Below are positions 1 through 9,212 of a DNA stretch of 64,000 nucleotides, piece by piece. The stretch is from a bacterium (lineage in GTDB: Bacteria > Eisenbacteria > RBG-16-71-46 > CAIMUX01). The translations under genes were made by a program, and so were the position numbers. The notes beneath the pieces were generated by a model that was given only the letters and a program-made list of their open reading frames with translations, made no database searches and had not been told where the DNA came from. Where the stretch lies: the NCBI GenBank assembly GCA_030431975.1, contig JAUIHP010000005.1, positions 62,001 through 126,000 of the forward strand. Reading direction: 5' to 3'. Within the stretch, counting starts at the first letter, position 1. Each line of letters starts with the position of its first letter.

Positions 1-458
1 TCGTCCATGGCCCGGGAACGCCCGACCAGGTTCTCCACTGCCACCTGTTGGGAGAGTTTCCCGCGCAGGTGCGTGTTCTCGCGACGCAACTGTCCGACTC
101 CGGCGGCCCGTTCAACCGCCATCTCGACTCGATCCGCCGAGAACGGTTTCGTCAGATAGTCGAAAGCGCCCAGCCGCATCGACTCAACGGCGCTTTCGAC
201 GGAGCCGTGGCCGGTCATCATGAGAACGGGAGTGTCGGGACACTGCTGCCGGATTTCCGGGAGCAGGGAGAGCCCATCTCTTCCCTTCATCCGGATATCG
301 AGAAGCACGATCTCCGGCACAGTCTTCCCGACCTCGCGGAGTGCTTCCTCCGCTCCGGTCGCTTGGGTGACCTCGTAACCCTGTCGGGTCAGAGTTTGCT
401 CGAGAAACTCGCGCAACAAAGGTTCATCATCAACGATGAGGATTCGTGATCTCGACAT
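1..458 (-). CDS. NtrC-family sigma-54 response regulator, N-terminal part (cut by window edge)
   Basis: Only the first 152 residues are inside the window; the gene continues past base 1. The visible part is a receiver domain with the acidic pair at residues 10-11, phospho-acceptor D54 (LLDIRM), T82 and K104 (YLTKP). The sequence ends at NLVGRSRAM, which is how the AAA+ domain of sigma-54 activators begins, so the full protein is very likely an NtrC-type activator. The start ATG at 458-456 overlaps the kinase stop as TGATG, implying translational coupling and a cognate pair. Next to flagellar genes this resembles FleR/FlrC (inference); the AAA+ and HTH domains are not visible. Confidence 0.85.
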   Translation of the reverse strand, partial: MSRSRILIVDDEPLLREFLEQTLTRQGYEVTQATGAEEALREVGKTVPEIVLLDIRMKGRDGLSLLPEIRQQCPDTPVLMMTGHGSVESAVESMRLGAFDYLTKPFSADRVEMAVERAAGVGQLRRENTHLRGKLSQQVAVENLVGRSRAMD

Positions 459-1669
459 CAGGCGGCCTCCTTGTGAGACTCGATCCGTGGTTCATCCGCA
501 GAACGCGCGAGCGCACGTCCCCTCTCCTTGGTTGGGTCGAAACGGAGAGGAGCGCCTGACTCGGCGGGAAAGTCGAGAACGACCGAAGTTCCGCGCCCCT
601 GGGCGCTGACGACGTGGATTTCGCCGCCATGGACTTCGATCGTTCGCCGAACGATCGCCATGCCGAGACCGGTTCCCCCCGGTTTCGTTGTGTAGAACGG
701 TTGAAAGACGCGCGAAACTTCCTCCGCGCTCAGTCCGCAGCCACTGTCACGAATGACGATGCGAACCCGTTCCCGTCCGTTGATGCCGCCGGTGGAGCGC
801 ACACGGAGGCTGATCGACCCCTTGTCCTCCATCGCGTCCATCGCGTTGTTGAGCAGGTTGGCCAAAGCCTGAAGCAGAAGCCGACGATCTCCCCGAATGG
901 CGGGGACTCCGCGCTCGACTCCCATGTCGATGACGATGCCGTTGCGCCAACGGGGCGAAACTTGAAGCGAGGCCGCACCTTCCGCCAGCAGGGACTCGAC
1001 GGAGATCGTCTCCCACCTGGGCTCGACCGGCCGGCTGTACTCGAGCAGGTCTTCGACGATTCGATTGGCTGCGTCACAACCCTGAAGAATCTTCTCGACG
1101 CGGGACCGGGAGTCCGAGTCCGCTTCGACATCACGTTGAAGAAGGCTGGCGAACCCCTGAATGACTCCGAGGGGATTTCGCAACTCGTGAGCGACCGTCG
1201 CCGACATCCGTCCAAGGGCGGCAAGGTCGCGTGTCCGCTCCAGCTCGCGGCTCAGTTCATGCATGGCCGTCCGGTCGTGGAACGCAAACAGTGTGACGAG
1301 ATGTTCCCGGGTTGGCGTGTCCGTCCCATGCAGGGAACGCGACGTGGCCGCCGCTGCCACGACTTCGTAGACACGAGCGCCGGTTTCCTCCCTCGACCAT
1401 CGCAGCTCGAAACGACGCGGTTGGGTCCCAACCTCTTTCGCTTCCTGGCGCAACCGTTCCAGGACGAGCGGCGGCAAGCCCGGTTCGGTCCCAAAGGACG
1501 GCTCGTGCAGTCCATCAGAGACATGCGTGAGTTGGCCTTTGAAATCGAGCGCGACGACGCCGTCCGCGATCGATTCGAGCAGTGCTTCGAGCGTGAGGCT
1601 AAGCTGCTCTTTCTGCGTCAGCTGATCGTGGAGTCGAGCGAACTCCGTTCCTGATGTCGATGGGCTCAT
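458..1669 (-). CDS. soluble PAS-type sensor histidine kinase (FleS/FlrB-like)
   Basis: 403 residues with no membrane segment. An N-terminal coiled stretch leads into a PAS-like region around residues 25-135, which begins LEALLESIADGVVALD as in FleS/FlrB kinases. The HisKA domain has its phospho-acceptor histidine at about H161 (AHELRNPLG). The HATPase domain has the N box (LLNNAMDAM), G1 box (DSGCG) and G2 box (GTGLG). The start ATG at 1669 overlaps the upstream stop by 4 bases, and its own stop overlaps the following response regulator. It should phosphorylate that regulator. A role in the flagellar hierarchy is inferred from domain layout and location; the signal sensed is unknown. Confidence 0.85.
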   Translation of the reverse strand: MSPSTSGTEFARLHDQLTQKEQLSLTLEALLESIADGVVALDFKGQLTHVSDGLHEPSFGTEPGLPPLVLERLRQEAKEVGTQPRRFELRWSREETGARVYEVVAAAATSRSLHGTDTPTREHLVTLFAFHDRTAMHELSRELERTRDLAALGRMSATVAHELRNPLGVIQGFASLLQRDVEADSDSRSRVEKILQGCDAANRIVEDLLEYSRPVEPRWETISVESLLAEGAASLQVSPRWRNGIVIDMGVERGVPAIRGDRRLLLQALANLLNNAMDAMEDKGSISLRVRSTGGINGRERVRIVIRDSGCGLSAEEVSRVFQPFYTTKPGGTGLGMAIVRRTIEVHGGEIHVVSAQGRGTSVVLDFPAESGAPLRFDPTKERGRALARSADEPRIESHKEAA

Positions 1670-3996
1670 GGGTTCTTAAGCTCCTCGATTCTTGAAGCCA
1701 CGTCCGATTCCCAACCCAGTGAGCCTAGTCTTTCTCGGGCAAAGCGGGTCCAGAAGGCCTCCGGGTGTTGCTCGATCAGTTCTTCATAGGCGTGACGAGC
1801 CGCTTCGACCCGTCCCTTGATGAAGTGGCAGTTTCCGATCTGATATCGAGCCCAGATCTTTTCGTCCTCGGGCGCATCGACGGCCAGAAGCTCTTCGTAG
1901 GCGTCGAGAGAGGCATCGATCTCTCCGTGCTGAAACTCCAGGTCGGCGGAGCGGGCCAGTCCGCGAAGGGAAAACGGACCTGTCACTTCACGAGCCAACT
2001 CCCGGTAGAGAGCGAGCGCTTCCAAACCGCGTTTGTCTTCGTCGGCCAGGCGTGCGCGCATGAGCAGAGCCTCGGCCCCTCCGGGATCGTCCGGCGAGAC
2101 TTGCTTCAGGTGTTCTTCCGCGCTCCGGGCCTTTCGGGCGAGGAAGTCCTCGCGGCCGAAGGCGTAGTGGTAGCGGGCTCTCCAGCCCGTGTCCTCGTAG
2201 AGGTGTCCCCAGTTCTCCATCCGCTCGAGCACGGACTCGCGGTCGCCGTTGTCGAAATAGATGGCCAGGAGTTTCTCGAAGAACTCAGGCCCCAGGTAGG
2301 TCGTGTTCGGAAGCTCGCCCATCAGGTAGAGGGAAGCGGTCTTCCCGGCGCGGTCCGTGGTCATATAGATCTCGTGGAGGAGCAGGCCCGCCTGTAGTCC
2401 TGCGGGATAGTCGCCGTAGTAGCGAAAGCAACGTTCGGCCCGGCGTTCCGCTCCCTCGATGTCGTTGACGAGCCAGTCCTCGATCGCCGCCTCGAGAAGA
2501 TGTCGAGCCCGACGCGCACGCAGGGAGTCGGCCGACTCCAGCGGATCTTCCTCGTCGAAGTCCTTCCAATCCTCAAACTCCTCTTCGGCCATCAATCGGT
2601 CGTTGAGCTCTTCGTCGCTCAGCACGTCGCCGTCGGGCGTCTCCGTGATGTCTTCGACGTTGTCTTGGCCGAGCAGCTCTTCCAGCGTTTCTCGCATGCT
2701 GTCGAGCTTGTGCTTTTCGTTCTTTCCGGCCGATTCCCTGGAGTCCTCTCCGTCATCCGGGCCGGTCGCGACATCTTCGGGTGATTCGGAATTCGTCGTT
2801 TCCGTGGAGTCCGTCGCCACGGCCGGGGTTTCGCGTGTCGCCAAGACTCCCGGGTCCGATCTCCACTGGTCGTCTGCAATGTCGATCTCGTTCGCCAGGT
2901 CGTCGTCCTGCCTGTCGTCCTGCCTGTCGTCCTGCCTGTCGTCCTGCCCGTCGTCCTGCCCGGCGTCTTGCCCGTCACCTTCGCCTTCGCTCGGGTCCTC
3001 GGTTGTCTCTGAGGGAGTGTCCGACTCCGCAGAGTCGTCTTCGGAGTCGGTGGAAGCCTCGTCCCGGGACTTCTTCGAGTTGACTCTGGCAAGAATGTCC
3101 GCGATGTCCTCGATGCCGCGTTCCAGCACCTCTTCGGGAGACTCGTCCGTACTGTCTTCAGCTGTGTTGGCTGTGTTGGCTGTGTCGGCTGTGTTGGCGT
3201 TGCCGGCGTTCTCGGTCTTGTCGGCTTCGTCGGTCTTGCCGGTGTTGCCGGCTGTCTCGGCGGCGCCCGACTTGTTCACCGCATTCGACGCAGCCCTGCC
3301 AGCGTCAGCCGTATCCGCGGCTTGCCTCGTATCCGTGGCGTCCGCCGCTTCTGCCTTCGCGACAGCCTCATCGGGATCGGTCTCACTCTTGTCGTCGGAA
3401 TCCCGTTTCGCCGCGGTCTCGGGCTTCTCAAAAGCATCGGCCGCGGCTGCCGTCAGGCTCTCGACCATCTCGCCCGCCCCTTCCAGGTGCAGGCCTTCTG
3501 CCGTGACAATGGCCGTCGGCGCTTTCAAGTTCGCCGCTTCGACCAGCACGTGAATCTCGTTGCCGACCCGCCGCGCTTCGTAAGGTGTGATCTTGTTCAA
3601 CTCCAGAGTCATGCGAACCCGGCGATCCAGCGGGTTGTTCGCAAACTGGCTGGTTCGGAAGATCTTCACCGGCCCGCGGTCGAGTTCGACTTCGTAGAGC
3701 GCCGGTGCGTTGGGAAGGACGCTGAGCGCATCGGCAAAATCGAGAATGATTCGTGGCGGATTGGCCAAGGTCCAATGAGCCCACGTGGCCTGGGTCGGTA
3801 TTTTCAGAACGAACCAACCGGGCTGACTCTCGATCTGAACGCGTTTGATTTCGAACTTCGGGGCCGGGTCCGCGGCCTCGACCGGCGAAACAAACGGTCG
3901 CAAAACCCCGCACGCCAACAGCACCAACGTCCCCACGACGAAGGCCGCGCGCAAACCAGGCCCCTTGGCTGTCAGAGATGCCATTCTAAGCTGCAT
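1666..3996 (-). CDS. AMIN-domain protein with long acidic low-complexity linker and C-terminal TPR repeats
   Basis: 776 residues from the ATG at 3996, which has a GGGAGG ribosome site 10 bases upstream inside the preceding gene (11-base overlap). Positions further upstream would give a longer frame but lack a ribosome site. An N-terminal hydrophobic segment (about residues 12-33) is a signal anchor. An AMIN-like domain (about 50-155) contains NPPRIILDF and NPLDRRVRMTLEL. About 300 residues rich in D, E, S, T and A follow, including four DDRQ-type units. The last about 270 residues are helical TPR-like repeats. AMIN domains target envelope proteins to peptidoglycan or secretin-type complexes, so an envelope scaffold is likely. 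I know no named family with this architecture. Confidence 0.7.
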   Translation of the reverse strand: MQLRMASLTAKGPGLRAAFVVGTLVLLACGVLRPFVSPVEAADPAPKFEIKRVQIESQPGWFVLKIPTQATWAHWTLANPPRIILDFADALSVLPNAPALYEVELDRGPVKIFRTSQFANNPLDRRVRMTLELNKITPYEARRVGNEIHVLVEAANLKAPTAIVTAEGLHLEGAGEMVESLTAAAADAFEKPETAAKRDSDDKSETDPDEAVAKAEAADATDTRQAADTADAGRAASNAVNKSGAAETAGNTGKTDEADKTENAGNANTADTANTANTAEDSTDESPEEVLERGIEDIADILARVNSKKSRDEASTDSEDDSAESDTPSETTEDPSEGEGDGQDAGQDDGQDDRQDDRQDDRQDDDLANEIDIADDQWRSDPGVLATRETPAVATDSTETTNSESPEDVATGPDDGEDSRESAGKNEKHKLDSMRETLEELLGQDNVEDITETPDGDVLSDEELNDRLMAEEEFEDWKDFDEEDPLESADSLRARRARHLLEAAIEDWLVNDIEGAERRAERCFRYYGDYPAGLQAGLLLHEIYMTTDRAGKTASLYLMGELPNTTYLGPEFFEKLLAIYFDNGDRESVLERMENWGHLYEDTGWRARYHYAFGREDFLARKARSAEEHLKQVSPDDPGGAEALLMRARLADEDKRGLEALALYRELAREVTGPFSLRGLARSADLEFQHGEIDASLDAYEELLAVDAPEDEKIWARYQIGNCHFIKGRVEAARHAYEELIEQHPEAFWTRFARERLGSLGWESDVASRIEELKNP
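2903..2962. repeat. 12-bp in-frame tandem repeat in the AMIN protein gene
   Basis: About five near-perfect copies of a 12-bp unit (GTCGTCCTGCCT on the plus strand, the last copies varying at one base) encode repeated DDRQ/DDGQ on the minus strand. The copy number could vary without changing the frame. Confidence 0.85.
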
Positions 3997-4897
3997 GAGA
4001 TTCCGACCTCCCTGTCGGCTCCTCCATCGAGTGAACGATTCCACGCGGCCCCAACAGTTCGACGTCCTCGACTTCCAGCGAATCTCCGGCAAGAAGGTCA
4101 AAGGACGGCCCGGAAAGCGCGAGCGCCTTCCACAATTCCTCCCGGGCTCGGCGGCTCCCGACCGCGCTCGTACCGGATCCCACCCGCGCCGTCAGGCGAT
4201 TCTGATCCCCAAGAATCTGGAGCACTTCCGGTTCGGAAAAGAGGTGAAGGTGACCGGGGGTCAGCGTGTCCCCGTCCAGAAGGGGACGGACAGGCCAGGC
4301 CAGCGAACGCGCCCACTCATCGGAAAGGACGCGGCAGAGGCGCGCACCCTCCGGTACCCGGACGACGACGGAGCGTGTTCGCGGCAGTTGCGAGACCCAG
4401 TCATGAAGGTCGACGAGGTGGCGCGTCTCCGGTAGGCAGACGATCGGACCGTCCGCCGTCAGATCCTCCGCGAAGGGAAAGGAGTGCTCCTCCGGATAGT
4501 GCACATCCTCGAGGTGCCAGGCCAGGTGTCGAAGGTGAAGGTCGTGGTGACCTTTCAACCGCTGCGGAGGAGTTCCCTTCGTCGGAAGAAGATCTCGCGC
4601 ACCCAGCTTCATCCCTTCCCAGGCCGTCCGAAATCCGTCCGTCGTGTCCGGGGTCAACAGGATGATCTTGGATGCGACTTCCGGTCCGACGGCTCGCAGG
4701 AGCGTGAGCACCTCCATCCGCCGAAGGACACAGGGGATGAAGGCAAGGTCATAGGGCTGACGCTGAAAGCGCGACTGAACGAGGCGTCCATCCTCGTGCA
4801 CGACCTCGAAGACGACACGCCCGACGAGTTCCTCCAACAGTTCGCGCAGCTCGGAAGCAATGACCCCACTGTCTGTCGAAAGCAGATAGCTCTTCAC
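3986..4897 (-). CDS. degenerate CheB-like protein (pseudo-receiver plus inactive methylesterase-like region)
   Basis: 303 residues from a GTG start at 4897 that overlaps the upstream stop as GTGA. Residues 1-125 resemble a receiver fold (YDLAFIPCVL, KIILLTPDT, GARDLLPTKG), but the phosphorylatable Asp is not evident. Residues about 150-300 follow the CheB methylesterase layout: LLDGDTLTPGHLHLFS corresponds to the family's EDGD.L.PG..YIAP. The Ser of GASTGG and the His of QHM are missing (GPIVCLPETRHL; VVVRVPEG). The domain is also shortened. If the match is right it is a catalytically dead CheB relative, perhaps a binding module. The assignment is by eye and is moderately uncertain. Confidence 0.5.
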   Translation of the reverse strand: MKSYLLSTDSGVIASELRELLEELVGRVVFEVVHEDGRLVQSRFQRQPYDLAFIPCVLRRMEVLTLLRAVGPEVASKIILLTPDTTDGFRTAWEGMKLGARDLLPTKGTPPQRLKGHHDLHLRHLAWHLEDVHYPEEHSFPFAEDLTADGPIVCLPETRHLVDLHDWVSQLPRTRSVVVRVPEGARLCRVLSDEWARSLAWPVRPLLDGDTLTPGHLHLFSEPEVLQILGDQNRLTARVGSGTSAVGSRRAREELWKALALSGPSFDLLAGDSLEVEDVELLGPRGIVHSMEEPTGRSESHAA

Positions 4898-5214
4898 TCT
4901 TGGGAACCCTCTCCGGAAGCGGTGCTCGCATCGCGCCGACCGGCGTTGCGGGCCAACTTTGCGCAAAGCGCGTGAGTCGCCTTCTCGAGCAGTTCCTCGA
5001 CCTGGGCTTCCCGGACTCCCAGGACCATGGCGATCTCGGCGCTGAGCAGAGACTCGTAGTAGCGAAGGGCCAGAACCACCTTCTGCCGCTCGGGAAGAGA
5101 GGCAATGGTCTTATCCAGGTAGTCCTGTCCTCGTTGCTCGAGGATCAGATCGACCTCGCTCCGAAGCCGTGCGGTGATTCCTGCTTCTTCGAGCAGGGGC
5201 TCGATACCCAACAT
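4894..5214 (-). CDS. stand-alone sigma-70 region 4 protein
   Basis: 106 residues from the ATG at 5214, preceded by AAGGAGGAA at good spacing. The core LPERQKVVLALRYYE followed by AEIAMVLGVREAQVEELL is a sigma region 4 helix-turn-helix, closest in style to FliA (sigma-28). Regions 2 and 3 are absent: no core-binding or -10 recognition part is encoded upstream in any frame of the 236-base spacer. It overlaps the CheB-like gene by 4 bases. It may be a DNA-binding or RNA polymerase-interacting accessory factor rather than a sigma factor. The possibility of a decayed fliA is weakened by the intact frame, good ribosome site and coupling. Confidence 0.7.
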   Translation of the reverse strand: MLGIEPLLEEAGITARLRSEVDLILEQRGQDYLDKTIASLPERQKVVLALRYYESLLSAEIAMVLGVREAQVEELLEKATHALCAKLARNAGRRDASTASGEGSQE

Positions 5215-5280
5215 GGACACTTCCTCCTTCGTCGGGGCCAAACAAAAGCATGCGCGGCTCCCCCGACAGCTGGAGGGAGA

Positions 5281-5297
5281 AGAAAGTGCAGTGCCAA
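5281..5297 (-). promoter_or_regulatory. candidate sigma-54 promoter of the sigma4/CheB-like/AMIN operon
   Basis: The minus strand reads TTGGCACTGCACTTTCT. The -24 element is a perfect TTGGCAC, and the -12 element at the right spacing is TTTCT rather than TTGCT. It lies 67 bases upstream of the ATG at 5214 in a 236-base spacer that holds no gene, right after a sigma-54 activator gene. The weak -12 element keeps confidence moderate. Confidence 0.45.
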
Positions 5298-5450: not shown

Positions 5451-6878
5451 TCAAGGACTGGCCGGTTCGTCCGTCGGTTCCAGCTCGTACTCCTTCACCT
5501 TGGTCCGAAGCGTCTGGCGGGCAATACCCAGGAGTTCCGCTGCCCGGGTCTTGTTGCCGTTGCAGTGCCGGAGCGCATGGGCGATCGCCGCCTTCTCCAC
5601 ATCGGCCAGGGGGACGACCCGCTCGGTCCGAAAAACGACCTCGCCCTGATCCTGACCGACCCGGGGAGTGTCCGGACCCCGCAGGACCCGCGATGGAAGA
5701 TCGTCCGGCAACAACTCCGGACCGTCCGCCATCAAAGCTGCGTGTTCCATCAGGTTCTTGAGTTCGCGGACGTTTCCCGGCCAGGAATACTCGCAGAGTT
5801 TTTCCATGACCTTGGTCGAGATCCCGGTCACTCGCCCCCCGACCTCGCGTGTGTAACGATCGAGGAAGTACCGCGACAGCAGCGAAATGTCCTCCGGGCG
5901 GTCGCGCAGCGGCGGAACGTGGACCGGAATGACCGAAAGACGATAGTAGAGGTCTTCGCGGAACCGCTTGGCCTCGACCTCCTGAAAGAGGTCCTTGTTC
6001 GTGGCGGCAATGAAGCGCGTGTGAACCTTGGTGTCGCTGGTCGCACTCAGCCGCCGGAACGTACGGGTTTCGAGGACGCGCAAGAGCTTGGCCTGCAGAG
6101 CCAGCGGCATCTCTCCGATCTCGTCGAGGAAGAGGGTGCCGCGGTCGGCGATCTCGAGGAGCCCCTTCTTCGGCCTTCGCGCATCGGTGTACGCCCCGGC
6201 TTCATAACCGAAGAGCTCGCTTTCGAGCAGGGCCTCGGGCACTGCCGCACAGTTGAGGTCGACAAACGGACCTTTGGCCCGGCTGTAAAGGTGGACGAGC
6301 CGGGAGATGAGTTCCTTCCCGGTCCCGGTTTCCCCGCGGACAAGGACGGTCGTCGTCCCCGCCTGAGCGACACGCCGTACCTTCTCCAGCAACTCCTGCA
6401 TGCGCTCACTCTCGCCAAAGACCGCACCGCCGAGTTCGCGTTCGCTGAGAATGCGAGTGGATTCCACTTCCTTCTGCAGTTCGAGTTCGGAGAGGGCGTT
6501 GCGAATGAGCAGGCGAAGTTGGGGAAGCTGAAGAGGCTTGGTCAGGTACTGGTAGCAGCCCAGCTTCATGGCCTCGACGGCCGACTCGATTCGTCCGTAG
6601 GCCGTCATCATGATGACGGGAGTACGCTCACGGATCGCTTTGATCTTTCTCAGAACATCGAGCCCACTCTCTCCGGACTCTTTCAGGTTCTGATCGACCA
6701 GCACGAGATCGATGGTCTCGGACTCGACGCGAGACAGCGCTTCCTTGCCCGTGGCCGCGACGTGAACGGTGGTGGATTCGTTGGCCAATGCTTCAGCCAG
6801 CGTGATGCGAATCGATTCTTCGTCATCCACGACCAACAACGTGTAGTGGAAGTCAGTCGTCGTCACGTCTTCGTTCAC
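5451..6878 (-). CDS. NtrC-family sigma-54-dependent response regulator (REC, AAA+, Fis HTH)
   Basis: 475 residues from a GTG at 6878 with AGGAGG just upstream, inside the end of the kinase gene (26-base overlap). The receiver domain has D18/D19, phospho-acceptor D62, T92 and K114. The AAA+ domain has Walker A GETGTGKE (182-189), the Walker B region LFLDEIGEM and the arginine-finger region FREDLYYRL. The sigma-54 contact loop reads GAYTDA (228-233) instead of GAFTGA. A Fis-type HTH (NKTRAAELLGIARQTL) ends the protein. It should activate sigma-54 promoters after phosphorylation by the adjacent kinase. Flagellar targets are inferred from context. Confidence 0.92.
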   Translation of the reverse strand: MNEDVTTTDFHYTLLVVDDEESIRITLAEALANESTTVHVAATGKEALSRVESETIDLVLVDQNLKESGESGLDVLRKIKAIRERTPVIMMTAYGRIESAVEAMKLGCYQYLTKPLQLPQLRLLIRNALSELELQKEVESTRILSERELGGAVFGESERMQELLEKVRRVAQAGTTTVLVRGETGTGKELISRLVHLYSRAKGPFVDLNCAAVPEALLESELFGYEAGAYTDARRPKKGLLEIADRGTLFLDEIGEMPLALQAKLLRVLETRTFRRLSATSDTKVHTRFIAATNKDLFQEVEAKRFREDLYYRLSVIPVHVPPLRDRPEDISLLSRYFLDRYTREVGGRVTGISTKVMEKLCEYSWPGNVRELKNLMEHAALMADGPELLPDDLPSRVLRGPDTPRVGQDQGEVVFRTERVVPLADVEKAAIAHALRHCNGNKTRAAELLGIARQTLRTKVKEYELEPTDEPASP

Positions 6879-8376
6879 CTTGCCTCCTCTCGATCGGTAG
6901 ATCGAGGATTGCAGTTGTGCCTTTGTTGTCTACGGGACGCAGGCTGAGAAAACCACCGTGGGCCTGCACGATCGACTGCGACAGGGAGAGCCCGAGTCCG
7001 GTCCCTCGCGGACGGGTCGTAAAAAAAGGATTCCAGATCCGATCGAGGAACTCTTTGGGAATCCCTCCCCCGGTATCTTCGATCCGAATCTGGACAAAAC
7101 GCTGTTTCGGGGCTTCGCCGACCCGACGGACCTTGTCGGTGGACCGCCTTCCGGGGCCGCGGCGCCGGTAGGGTGAGCGCCGGACGACGAGAGTGCGAAT
7201 CGTCAGCGCACCACCGCCGGACATGGCGTCTCGCGAGTTCCGGATCAGGTTGAGTAGAACCTGCTCGATCTGCCCCGGATCGAAGAAGAGGCGAGGGATT
7301 CGTCCCCGCACCCGATCATCGACACGGATCCCGGATTCTTCCAGCTCCGCGCGGGTCAACTCGAGGACCCGCTTCAGCGAGTCTTCGATCTGCCCGGAAC
7401 ACATCTGCGGACGGTTCGGTCTGGCGTAGCCGAGAAGTCCCTCGACGATGCGATTGAGCCGATCCGTTTCGTCGAGAATGATCCGGATGAACCTCTGTCC
7501 CTTGTGGTCCGGATCCAGGTCTTCGAGGAGCACCTGAGCCCCGTTGGCAATTCCGGTCAGCGGATTGCGGATCTCGTGGGCGACCCCGGCCGAGAGCTCG
7601 CCGAGCACGGCCAGTCGTTCCTTTTGTCGGTCCGCTTCCTCGTGACGGCGCTCTTCGGAAAGGTCCTGAAAGAAGGCATGAAGACGAAAGGGACTACCGT
7701 CGTCATGATCGTGCCGCGACATCTGAAGGCGAATCGGGATCTCTTCCCCGTCGGGACGACGAATGAACAGTTCGAGCGGTCCCTCCGGTTGACGCAACGC
7801 CCGGAGCAGCGGGCTTTCGCTGAGCGAAACAGGACGGAGAACGCGCGCGCAGTCGCGACCCAGGACTTCGTTACGGGAGACACCGAGGATGGCTTCCGCT
7901 TTGCCTCCGATATCCAAAACGCGCCCCAGGGCATCGACCGTCAGGAACCCGAAGGGCAGCGCAGAATCGATGGCGTCCCGGAGTCCGCCAAGAGAAAGGG
8001 AGCGCAAGCTCTCCCTCTGGTACTGCAGATAGATGGCGAGACTCTCCTCGGACTCTTCGGAGAGCGGAGAGGCCTCCCTGCCCGGAAACAGGACTCCACC
8101 GACGGGTTCATCCCGCCATTCGATGGTGACGGCGTGAAAGCCGTGCTCCAGCTTGCGGACGCCACCGGTCCACGAGTCGCTCGAGGTCAATTCGACTTCG
8201 AGGGTCTCCTCGACTTCCAGGCCGCTGTCATAAACGGGGTGCGCGGTACCATCCGCATGCAGCAGATAAAGGCGGACCGGGCCGCCGGCCGCGACCTCTT
8301 CGAGGATGGCCAGGATGGAACGCGGAAAGTCGCTGCGACTCCATTCCGTGGCTACGCTCTGTTGGGCCCTTCCCAT
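6853..8376 (-). CDS. NtrB-like cytoplasmic sensor histidine kinase
   Basis: 507 residues, no membrane segment. Residues 15-120 form a GAF-like region, 130-245 a PAS domain (FGFLTVDALGRVLDIGGKAE), and the HisKA motif AGVAHEIRNPLTG carries H267. The HATPase domain follows, with N box LLNLIRNSRDAM, G1 box DTGGG and G2 box RGTGLGLS. A basic 30-residue insertion (SPYRRRGPGRRSTDK) sits between the N and G1 boxes. The reading frame overlaps the downstream response regulator by 26 bases, so the two form a cognate pair. The ribosome site is weak. The 149-base spacer upstream separates it from the PilZ gene. Confidence 0.9.
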   Translation of the reverse strand: MGRAQQSVATEWSRSDFPRSILAILEEVAAGGPVRLYLLHADGTAHPVYDSGLEVEETLEVELTSSDSWTGGVRKLEHGFHAVTIEWRDEPVGGVLFPGREASPLSEESEESLAIYLQYQRESLRSLSLGGLRDAIDSALPFGFLTVDALGRVLDIGGKAEAILGVSRNEVLGRDCARVLRPVSLSESPLLRALRQPEGPLELFIRRPDGEEIPIRLQMSRHDHDDGSPFRLHAFFQDLSEERRHEEADRQKERLAVLGELSAGVAHEIRNPLTGIANGAQVLLEDLDPDHKGQRFIRIILDETDRLNRIVEGLLGYARPNRPQMCSGQIEDSLKRVLELTRAELEESGIRVDDRVRGRIPRLFFDPGQIEQVLLNLIRNSRDAMSGGGALTIRTLVVRRSPYRRRGPGRRSTDKVRRVGEAPKQRFVQIRIEDTGGGIPKEFLDRIWNPFFTTRPRGTGLGLSLSQSIVQAHGGFLSLRPVDNKGTTAILDLPIERRQGERRRDDD

Positions 8377-8525: not shown

Positions 8526-9212
8526 TCAAGCCGATTCCGACCGGCCTCCACGACGGATCCGCCGGTATTCATCGAAGAGCCGGCGCAGGATCCGCTGGCG
8601 ATCCGGCTCTTTGATCTCTATGAAACGGCAGGCGACGGTGTCGTGATCCCCGTCCCGGCGTACACGCAGGGCCTCCAGTCTGACGAGCAATGAATCCTTC
8701 TGGTCGTCCAACTGCAGATACCCCTTCCGAACCTCTCCCTTCCCGATCGAGCCGGGAGGGACAGAGACGCAACACCCGCCTCCACTCAATTCCACGACAT
8801 TGCCCATGACCTGAAGCTGTGAGTCGTGATGACGGAAAACGATGCGGAGTCGGACCGGCATCCGGAAGAAGGCGCGCTGGGCTGTGTCCTCGCCGTGAAC
8901 TTCGAGCGTGAGATTTGCTTCACCCACGTCGACGACGACCCCGGTCCAGGACGTCGTGCCTCCGTCCATTCGCACGCGCACACCCTGGCCGACCGCGGGC
9001 GGCGTTATCGTTGGCTTATCCGGATCTTGTGGGGAGAAATGCAAGCCGAGGCGGGAGCCGTCCTCTCCGGCACTTGCGGTTTCGATGATGGCCTGGACGC
9101 GGAAGGTCCCGGCCCACTCCACGAAGACGGCGTCATTGAGCGCGACTCCGGAGGGTGCGACTCCGGAGGGCCCGACTCCGGAGGGGCCGTCGGCGTGAAC
9201 GTCGTCGTCCAA
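8526..9212 (-). CDS. PilZ-domain protein (YcgR-like c-di-GMP effector candidate)
   Basis: 228 residues from a TTG start at 9212 with AAGGA about 9 bases upstream, 5 bases after the FlgM-like gene. The N-terminus has a short PSGV repeat. A YcgR-N-like beta domain (30-110) is followed by a PilZ domain with RAFFRMPVRLRI (the RxxxR element) and VELSGGGCCV where the family has D/NxSxxG. The Glu replacing Asp/Asn may weaken cyclic-di-GMP binding. YcgR proteins brake flagellar rotation when bound to cyclic-di-GMP, and the location at the end of a flagellar operon fits. Ligand binding is not certain. Confidence 0.75.
   Translation of the reverse strand: MDDDVHADGPSGVGPSGVAPSGVALNDAVFVEWAGTFRVQAIIETASAGEDGSRLGLHFSPQDPDKPTITPPAVGQGVRVRMDGGTTSWTGVVVDVGEANLTLEVHGEDTAQRAFFRMPVRLRIVFRHHDSQLQVMGNVVELSGGGCCVSVPPGSIGKGEVRKGYLQLDDQKDSLLVRLEALRVRRDGDHDTVACRFIEIKEPDRQRILRRLFDEYRRIRRGGRSESA

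Follow-up and report, generated by a model that had tools for sequence, protein, structure and literature searches.

How the kinases of flagellar assembly checkpoints learn that the base of the motor has been built is a standing question in the field. The kinase/regulator pairs of V. cholerae, P. aeruginosa and C. jejuni need the MS ring, the rotor and the export gate in order to activate flgB-type operons, and in some species an unidentified factor may act between the base and the kinase (PMC7064773). We describe here a locus from an uncultured phylum in which the genes of two undescribed adaptor-like proteins and of a putative motor spoke have been brought together, in several genera, with that of a putative kinase of this type. 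What could these proteins be doing next to such a kinase?

The stretch of DNA that was analysed (the window) comprises bases 62001-126000 of contig C28 in a 6.2-Mb draft genome (G000). In a narrowed alignment of its AMIN/TPR protein the nearest named records were only three, all of them metagenome-assembled genomes of Candidatus Eisenbacteria. The comparison covered 385 genomes, 47 from the phylum and 338 from outside it.

Organization of the operon and its surroundings

Five genes, all on the minus strand, overlap successively by 4, 11, 4 and 1 bases (Table 1). The two 4-base overlaps read GTGA and ATGA and the last junction reads TGATG; the coordinates, the strand and the overlaps are all as given in the initial annotation. 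The last gene, encoding RR2, is cut by the edge of the window; it extends 942 bases further, to C28:61058, and is followed by flgB. The complete RR2 has 466 residues and consists of a receiver, a sigma-54 AAA+ domain and a Fis HTH.

Table 1. Features of the operon and of its upstream neighbours (window coordinates)
Feature	Position	Strand	Basis or remark
Predicted sigma-54 (-24/-12) promoter, TTGGCACTGCACTTTCT	5281..5297	-	Scored scan, 22/26; site kept in relatives
sigma4, 106 aa, sigma-28-type region 4 only	4894..5214	-	Best matches FliA region 4
Pseudo-CheB, 303 aa, GTG start at 4897	3986..4897	-	Degenerate receiver and dead methylesterase-like domain
AMIN - acidic linker - TPR protein, exported, PflA-type, ATG at 3996	1666..3996	-	Domains, architecture
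Kinase 2 (HK2), 403 aa, soluble sensor kinase with AtoS-like N-terminal region	458..1669	-	
Regulator 2 (RR2), receiver part of NtrC-type regulator	1..458	-	Start at 458
RR1, NtrC-type regulator, GAYTDA loop, conserved upstream neighbour	5451..6878	-	
HK1, PAS sensor kinase	6853..8376	-	Overlaps RR1

An unbroken flagellar locus of roughly 50 kb (about C28:32,000-79,000) surrounds the operon, which is flanked on one side by a second kinase/NtrC pair and on the other by flgB-flgC-fliE-fliF, and is therefore part of the flagellum gene set. Downstream come flgB, flgC, fliE, fliF, fliG, fliH, fliI, the gene of a FlgY-like MgtE_N protein, flgD and flgE, and then fliL, fliM, more export genes, flhF, flhG and fliA. 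Upstream lie RR1/HK1 (an NtrC regulator and a PAS kinase), a PilZ protein, fliD, fliS and flagellin, followed by csrA, fliW, flgL, flgK and flgN. Several of these gene names were assigned from similarity to neighbours, gene order and reading of the N-terminus by eye.

A sigma-54-like promoter had been proposed upstream of the operon, and a site is indeed found there. It was scored with weights based on the sigma-54 consensus, and only eight positions on both strands of the whole 64-kb window score at least 22. A plain consensus search of the whole window returned nine sites compared with 9.7 expected, which is the chance level, so the promoter assignments rest on position and conservation only. 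In all six loci in which sigma4 comes first, a site lies 47-83 bases before it and scores 22-26 out of 26 (in the five relatives, 23-26 at -47 to -68). Sigma-54-type sites also precede flgB in the window genome (candidate site ATGGCACGGTGCTTTCT at C28:60819), G004, G005, G010 and G028, that is in five of five. The sites before sigma4 and before flgB fit a sigma-54 cascade, in which we infer the pairing of each regulator with its promoter. A scan for sigma-28 promoters gave nothing usable.

It should be noted that the sigma-54 contact loop of RR1 reads GAFTDA or GAYTDA, and not GAFTGA, in all of the sequences read (G000, G004, G005, G006, G007 and G028). Next to HK1, a PilZ-domain protein (window 8526-9212) could provide a c-di-GMP input to the flagellar locus.

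A kinase/regulator pair of probable checkpoint type

HK2 carries HisKA and HATPase domains with an intact H-box (VAHELRNP) and has no transmembrane segment; its N-terminal region is AtoS-like, and a PAS domain is detected in relatives. RR2 has the receiver aspartate (LLDIRM), a GSFTGA loop and an HTH_8 domain. A soluble kinase with a PAS region, a sigma-54-activating NtrC-type regulator, the position of both genes right before flgB-flgC-fliE and the sigma-54 site upstream of flgB are all shared with FlgSR, FlrBC and FleSR (PMC7064773). By this analogy, HK2/RR2 is best read as the pair that would control the flgB rod-hook operon at an assembly checkpoint, and the initial description of a FleSR-like pair holds in its parts and in its position. 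The pair differs from the known ones in its place at the end of an operon whose first two genes encode a sigma-28 region 4 fragment and a pseudo-CheB and which includes a putative motor scaffold gene, and in having a second kinase/NtrC pair just upstream. In one family (f3; L027, L028 and L030) HK2 has a glutamine in place of the glutamate after the H-box histidine (HQLRNP or HQIRNP), which is unusual among HisKA kinases.

The AMIN/TPR protein resembles a motor spoke

The third protein has an N-terminal hydrophobic segment or signal sequence, a predicted beta-sandwich (residues 51-170) that matches AMIN above the Pfam cut-off in the window protein (1.2e-4), a linker with 31% Asp+Glu and a C-terminal TPR solenoid (residues 488-773), which is YbgF-like in seven of seven AMIN/TPR proteins. 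The acidic linker contains a short tandem repeat (window 2900-2965; QDDRQDDRQDDR), and its length may vary between strains.

In Foldseek, almost the entire model aligned with chain 9hmf_K of the C. jejuni motor scaffold (probably PflA, judging by its 773 residues), with an E-value of 1.2e-4 and a TM-score of only 0.12; generic solenoids dominate the fold matches, and many unrelated ones match the TPR part better than the scaffold. The structure models are middling (mean pLDDT of about 60), and the scaffold chain is not among the best 60 matches in a profile search of PDB sequences. Given the TM-score and the better-matching solenoids, the protein may be a homologue of PflA, and the label PflA-type refers to its architecture and context. 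PflA of C. jejuni and H. pylori follows the same plan of beta-sandwich, linker and TPR solenoid (PMC12222027, PMC11392913), and its beta-sandwich has been called AMIN-like (PMC11870540). According to the same preprint, TPR proteins encoded near flagellar genes, found in about half of flagellated species, are likely PflA relatives across phyla (PMC11870540); the AMIN/TPR gene lies in just such a position. The likeness to the PflA, MotC and FlcA spokes extends from the signal sequence, AMIN-type beta-sandwich, flexible linker and TPR solenoid to the location of the gene inside a flagellar cluster that also encodes a FlgY-type partner (PMC12222027, PMC11870540, PMC11392913). On the other hand, the acidic linker is very long, the gene sits between regulators, the TPR solenoid is shorter than that of PflA and no match was found at the sequence level. 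By architecture and context we file the protein with the PflA-type spokes of the motor, which are already known as a kind of part.

The initial annotation had cast it instead as an envelope-anchored scaffold that might sense the envelope or the flagellar base and signal to HK2 through sigma4 and the CheB-like protein. In every locus that shows both, the AMIN/TPR and HK2 genes are indeed neighbours, and they overlap in five genomes (G000, G004, G008, G010 and G028), and contact with peptidoglycan is possible for AMIN domains (PMC11870540). However, HK2 has neither a transmembrane nor a periplasmic part, no portion of the AMIN/TPR protein is cytoplasmic, and sigma4 and pseudo-CheB lack an export signal. 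Since a structural role of the PflA type (PMC12222027, PMC11870540) accounts for the gene without any signal path, the signalling claim is weakened, and we consider it improbable.

A CheB relative without its catalytic triad

Pseudo-CheB alone has no Pfam match. The profile of its family, however, aligns with CheB proteins of solved structure along the receiver and into the esterase domain as far as its midpoint, and in Foldseek CheB ranks first with the predicted model. Like CheB, the protein would consist of a receiver and a C-terminal esterase-like domain, both covered by the profile match; unlike CheB, it forms a clade of its own (support 100/100), is encoded outside any chemotaxis operon and has a C-terminus that does not resemble that of CheB. 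All three residues of the catalytic triad (Ser, His and Asp) are missing in eight of eight members, which bears out the suggestion that this CheB relative is non-catalytic. The true CheBs of the phylum keep the triad wherever it is covered (one sequence stops before the Asp). The search of the 385 genomes returned nine members, all in one order, and outside the phylum only three weaker matches, covering the same stretch as true CheBs. In the literature covered, which includes few subscription journals, no description of a triad-less CheB relative in flagellar gene control was found.

The phospho-acceptor Asp of the receiver is kept in five pseudo-CheBs (G003, G004, G006, G007 and G010) and lost in those of the window, G002 and G008. 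Judging from this loss, the usual switching by phosphorylation would not be open to the protein of the window genome.

The architecture retained from CheB, together with the separate true CheB genes in the genome, could also suggest that the operon is a mere transcriptional unit: HK2/RR2 would be the checkpoint, the AMIN/TPR protein a motor part, and sigma4 and pseudo-CheB would tune the chemotaxis array or receptor adaptation. With the triad gone and not a single chemotaxis gene in the operon, such tuning appears quite unlikely.

The sigma4 fragment has lost the DNA-recognition residues of FliA

Sigma4 consists of sigma-70 region 4 only (Pfam Sigma70_r4_2, 9e-9), regions 2 and 3 being missing, and its closest relative by sequence search is region 4 of FliA (sigma-28). 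The first helix, LPERxRLVLALRYYE, is still recognisable. The recognition helix reads ESRVSQ in 11 of 11 FliA proteins of the phylum; its Arg and Gln are lost in seven of seven sigma4-only proteins, and no new conserved set replaces the FliA-invariant residues. Because of this loss it is unlikely, from the sequence, that sigma4 reads the -35 element as FliA does. A protein-binding role is likelier, and the earlier label of a 'DNA-binding' sigma fragment is not supported.

Two-subunit sigma factors such as SigO/RsoA exist in Bacillus, and with its recognisable region 4 fold sigma4 might be half of such a factor for flagellar promoters or a small DNA-binding regulator. This is very doubtful: the FliA-invariant residues of the recognition helix are lost in all seven members without a new conserved set in their place, and no gene for a region-2-only partner is seen in the operon.

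Conservation of the set within the phylum

Whether the set recurs as a unit was the test posed at the outset. The full order sigma4, CheB-like, AMIN/TPR, HK2, RR2, flgB, flgC, fliE is found in two relatives (G004 and G010), and three short contigs (G002, G008 and G009) hold as much of it as their length allows. Two other families have reduced forms: sigma4-AMIN/TPR-HK2-RR2-flgB, without the CheB-like gene, in G005, and CheY-like receiver-sigma4-AMIN/TPR-HK2-RR2-flgB in G028, which belongs to a different family within the class. A sigma4/CheB-like pair lies between RR1 and flhG-fliA in G006, without the other three genes, and in G003 a CheB-like gene precedes flhG-fliA at the start of a contig. 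In G007 sigma4 is not recognisable. The set is thus neither confined to the window genome nor scattered. Of the 47 phylum genomes, eight have the AMIN/TPR protein, complete or for the most part (in G002 only a part is on the contig), and FliG is detected in seven of these eight.

In G005 a multi-pass membrane protein, by eye probably a glycosyltransferase-like enzyme, is encoded between RR1 and sigma4 (L056:9341-11017), which have no direct junction there. The genomes G006 and G003 (L025 and L026) encode FliA, FlhG, pseudo-CheB and related proteins, yet the FliG domain search found no FliG in either, although one of them is listed as 100% complete; the flagellum may have been lost with the regulators kept, or the assemblies may have gaps.

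Flagellated genomes of family f10 (G034, G038, G041 and G046) have only an RR2-type regulator before flgB, with no sigma4, CheB-like, AMIN/TPR or HK2 gene in that neighbourhood. In the tree, the flgB-adjacent regulators of f10 and RR2 fall into one clade (98/99), the f10 rows covering about half of the alignment. A sensible reading is that of an ancestral flgB-linked regulator, with the kinase, the spoke, sigma4 and pseudo-CheB gained in one branch.

Among the 338 genomes sampled outside the phylum, a sample that is no proof of absence, no comparable set was found, and in the genomes sampled both the sigma4 fragment and pseudo-CheB were found only in this phylum. The AMIN/TPR search of the 385 genomes gave only weak partial matches outside it. 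The five that were examined do not represent the same system: the neighbouring genes place three of them, which are PilQ-like, in pilus loci, a fourth is an AMIN protein of no assigned class, and the match in G077 is part of an RR-TPR-HK-RR set on a contig on which no flagellar gene is seen.

This distribution bears on a more prosaic account, in which sigma4 and pseudo-CheB are functionless relics of fliA and cheB from an ancestral fla/che operon. Both descend from genes of flagellar or chemotaxis operons, the pair of G006 and the pseudo-CheB of G003 adjoin flhG-fliA, catalytic and DNA-reading residues are gone, and one or the other protein is missing in some relatives. Nevertheless, the reading frames have stayed open in several genera and families whose proteins share 20-45% identity, the overlapping starts persist, the strong sigma-54 promoter right before sigma4 is kept in six of six loci, and five pseudo-CheBs keep the phospho-acceptor Asp. 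We regard decay as rather unlikely; that two 'broken' signalling proteins are kept together across related genera points towards a further level of control over the flagellum that has not been described.

A model for the operon

Overall, the operon is probably best explained by a flagellar checkpoint pair combined with a motor spoke and two non-catalytic adaptors. Counting against this explanation are the absence of pseudo-CheB in G005, the lack of a recognisable sigma4 in G007 and the fact that flagellated relatives in one family live without sigma4, the CheB-like protein, the AMIN/TPR protein and HK2 near flgB.

The five genes would form a middle-tier flagellar operon of Candidatus Eisenbacteria. 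We infer that HK1/RR1, with RR1 as the likely activator, would turn on the operon with sigma-54 at its conserved promoter. Once the MS ring, the rotor and the export gate are in place, HK2 would, by homology and position, phosphorylate RR2, which with sigma-54 would switch on the adjacent flgB rod/hook operon. In the periplasm, the AMIN/TPR protein may, to judge by its architecture, build PflA-type motor spokes with the FlgY-type protein of the locus. These three steps are ordinary in kind; the fourth is new and hypothetical. Sigma4 would no longer read DNA while still presenting some of the surface through which region 4 contacts proteins, and with pseudo-CheB (in one lineage, with a CheY-like receiver) it would form a split, PhyR-like mimic/adaptor switch. 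By binding either the flap of RNA polymerase or an inhibitor of sigma-28, the switch would act on sigma-28 activity and could make the late genes await the checkpoint.

In PhyR, the receiver governs a domain that mimics a sigma factor and thereby captures an anti-sigma factor. The analogy is one of working only: a receiver-type protein and a sigma-like piece are kept together in both systems, but here they are two separate proteins from two genes, with no fusion, and region 4 is of the sigma-28 type and not of the ECF type (sigma4 scores only 15 bits against PhyR_sigma-like, with a cut-off of 27). Within this order FlgM, a short and divergent protein that may escape such a search, was not recognised except for one sub-threshold match in G004, so that a region 4 decoy has no visible classical target; weak FlgM matches exist in G028 and in family f10. 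One of the latter (G038, L125:15448-15774) lies near flagellin genes, in a family without the sigma4 operon. That sigma4 and pseudo-CheB form a split sigma-mimic switch coupling sigma-28 (late flagellar gene) activity to the checkpoint, a PhyR-like logic invented independently for flagella, is put forward as a tentative and doubtful proposal.

The initial annotation knew of no described system with this composition. This remains true of the sigma4/pseudo-CheB pair, which is undescribed, and does not apply to the AMIN/TPR protein or to the kinase/regulator pair: three of the five parts are of known kinds. Should sigma4 and pseudo-CheB prove to act as adaptors or to mimic a sigma factor, flagellar timing would have gained a new kind of component, and the two would illustrate how protein-binding regulators can be made by recycling a sigma factor and an enzyme of chemotaxis.

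A further small protein near fliA

Directly 3' of fliA, at L133:7285-8963 (window genome, C28) and at the corresponding place in L134-L137, L139 and L140, a small acidic protein is encoded, which in most relatives ends in an ID(L/I/V)(Q/K/E)A-like motif. It is followed by a membrane protein with a weak C-terminal match to DUF6115. A sigma-28 gene with this protein after it is reminiscent of sigD-swrB in Bacillus.
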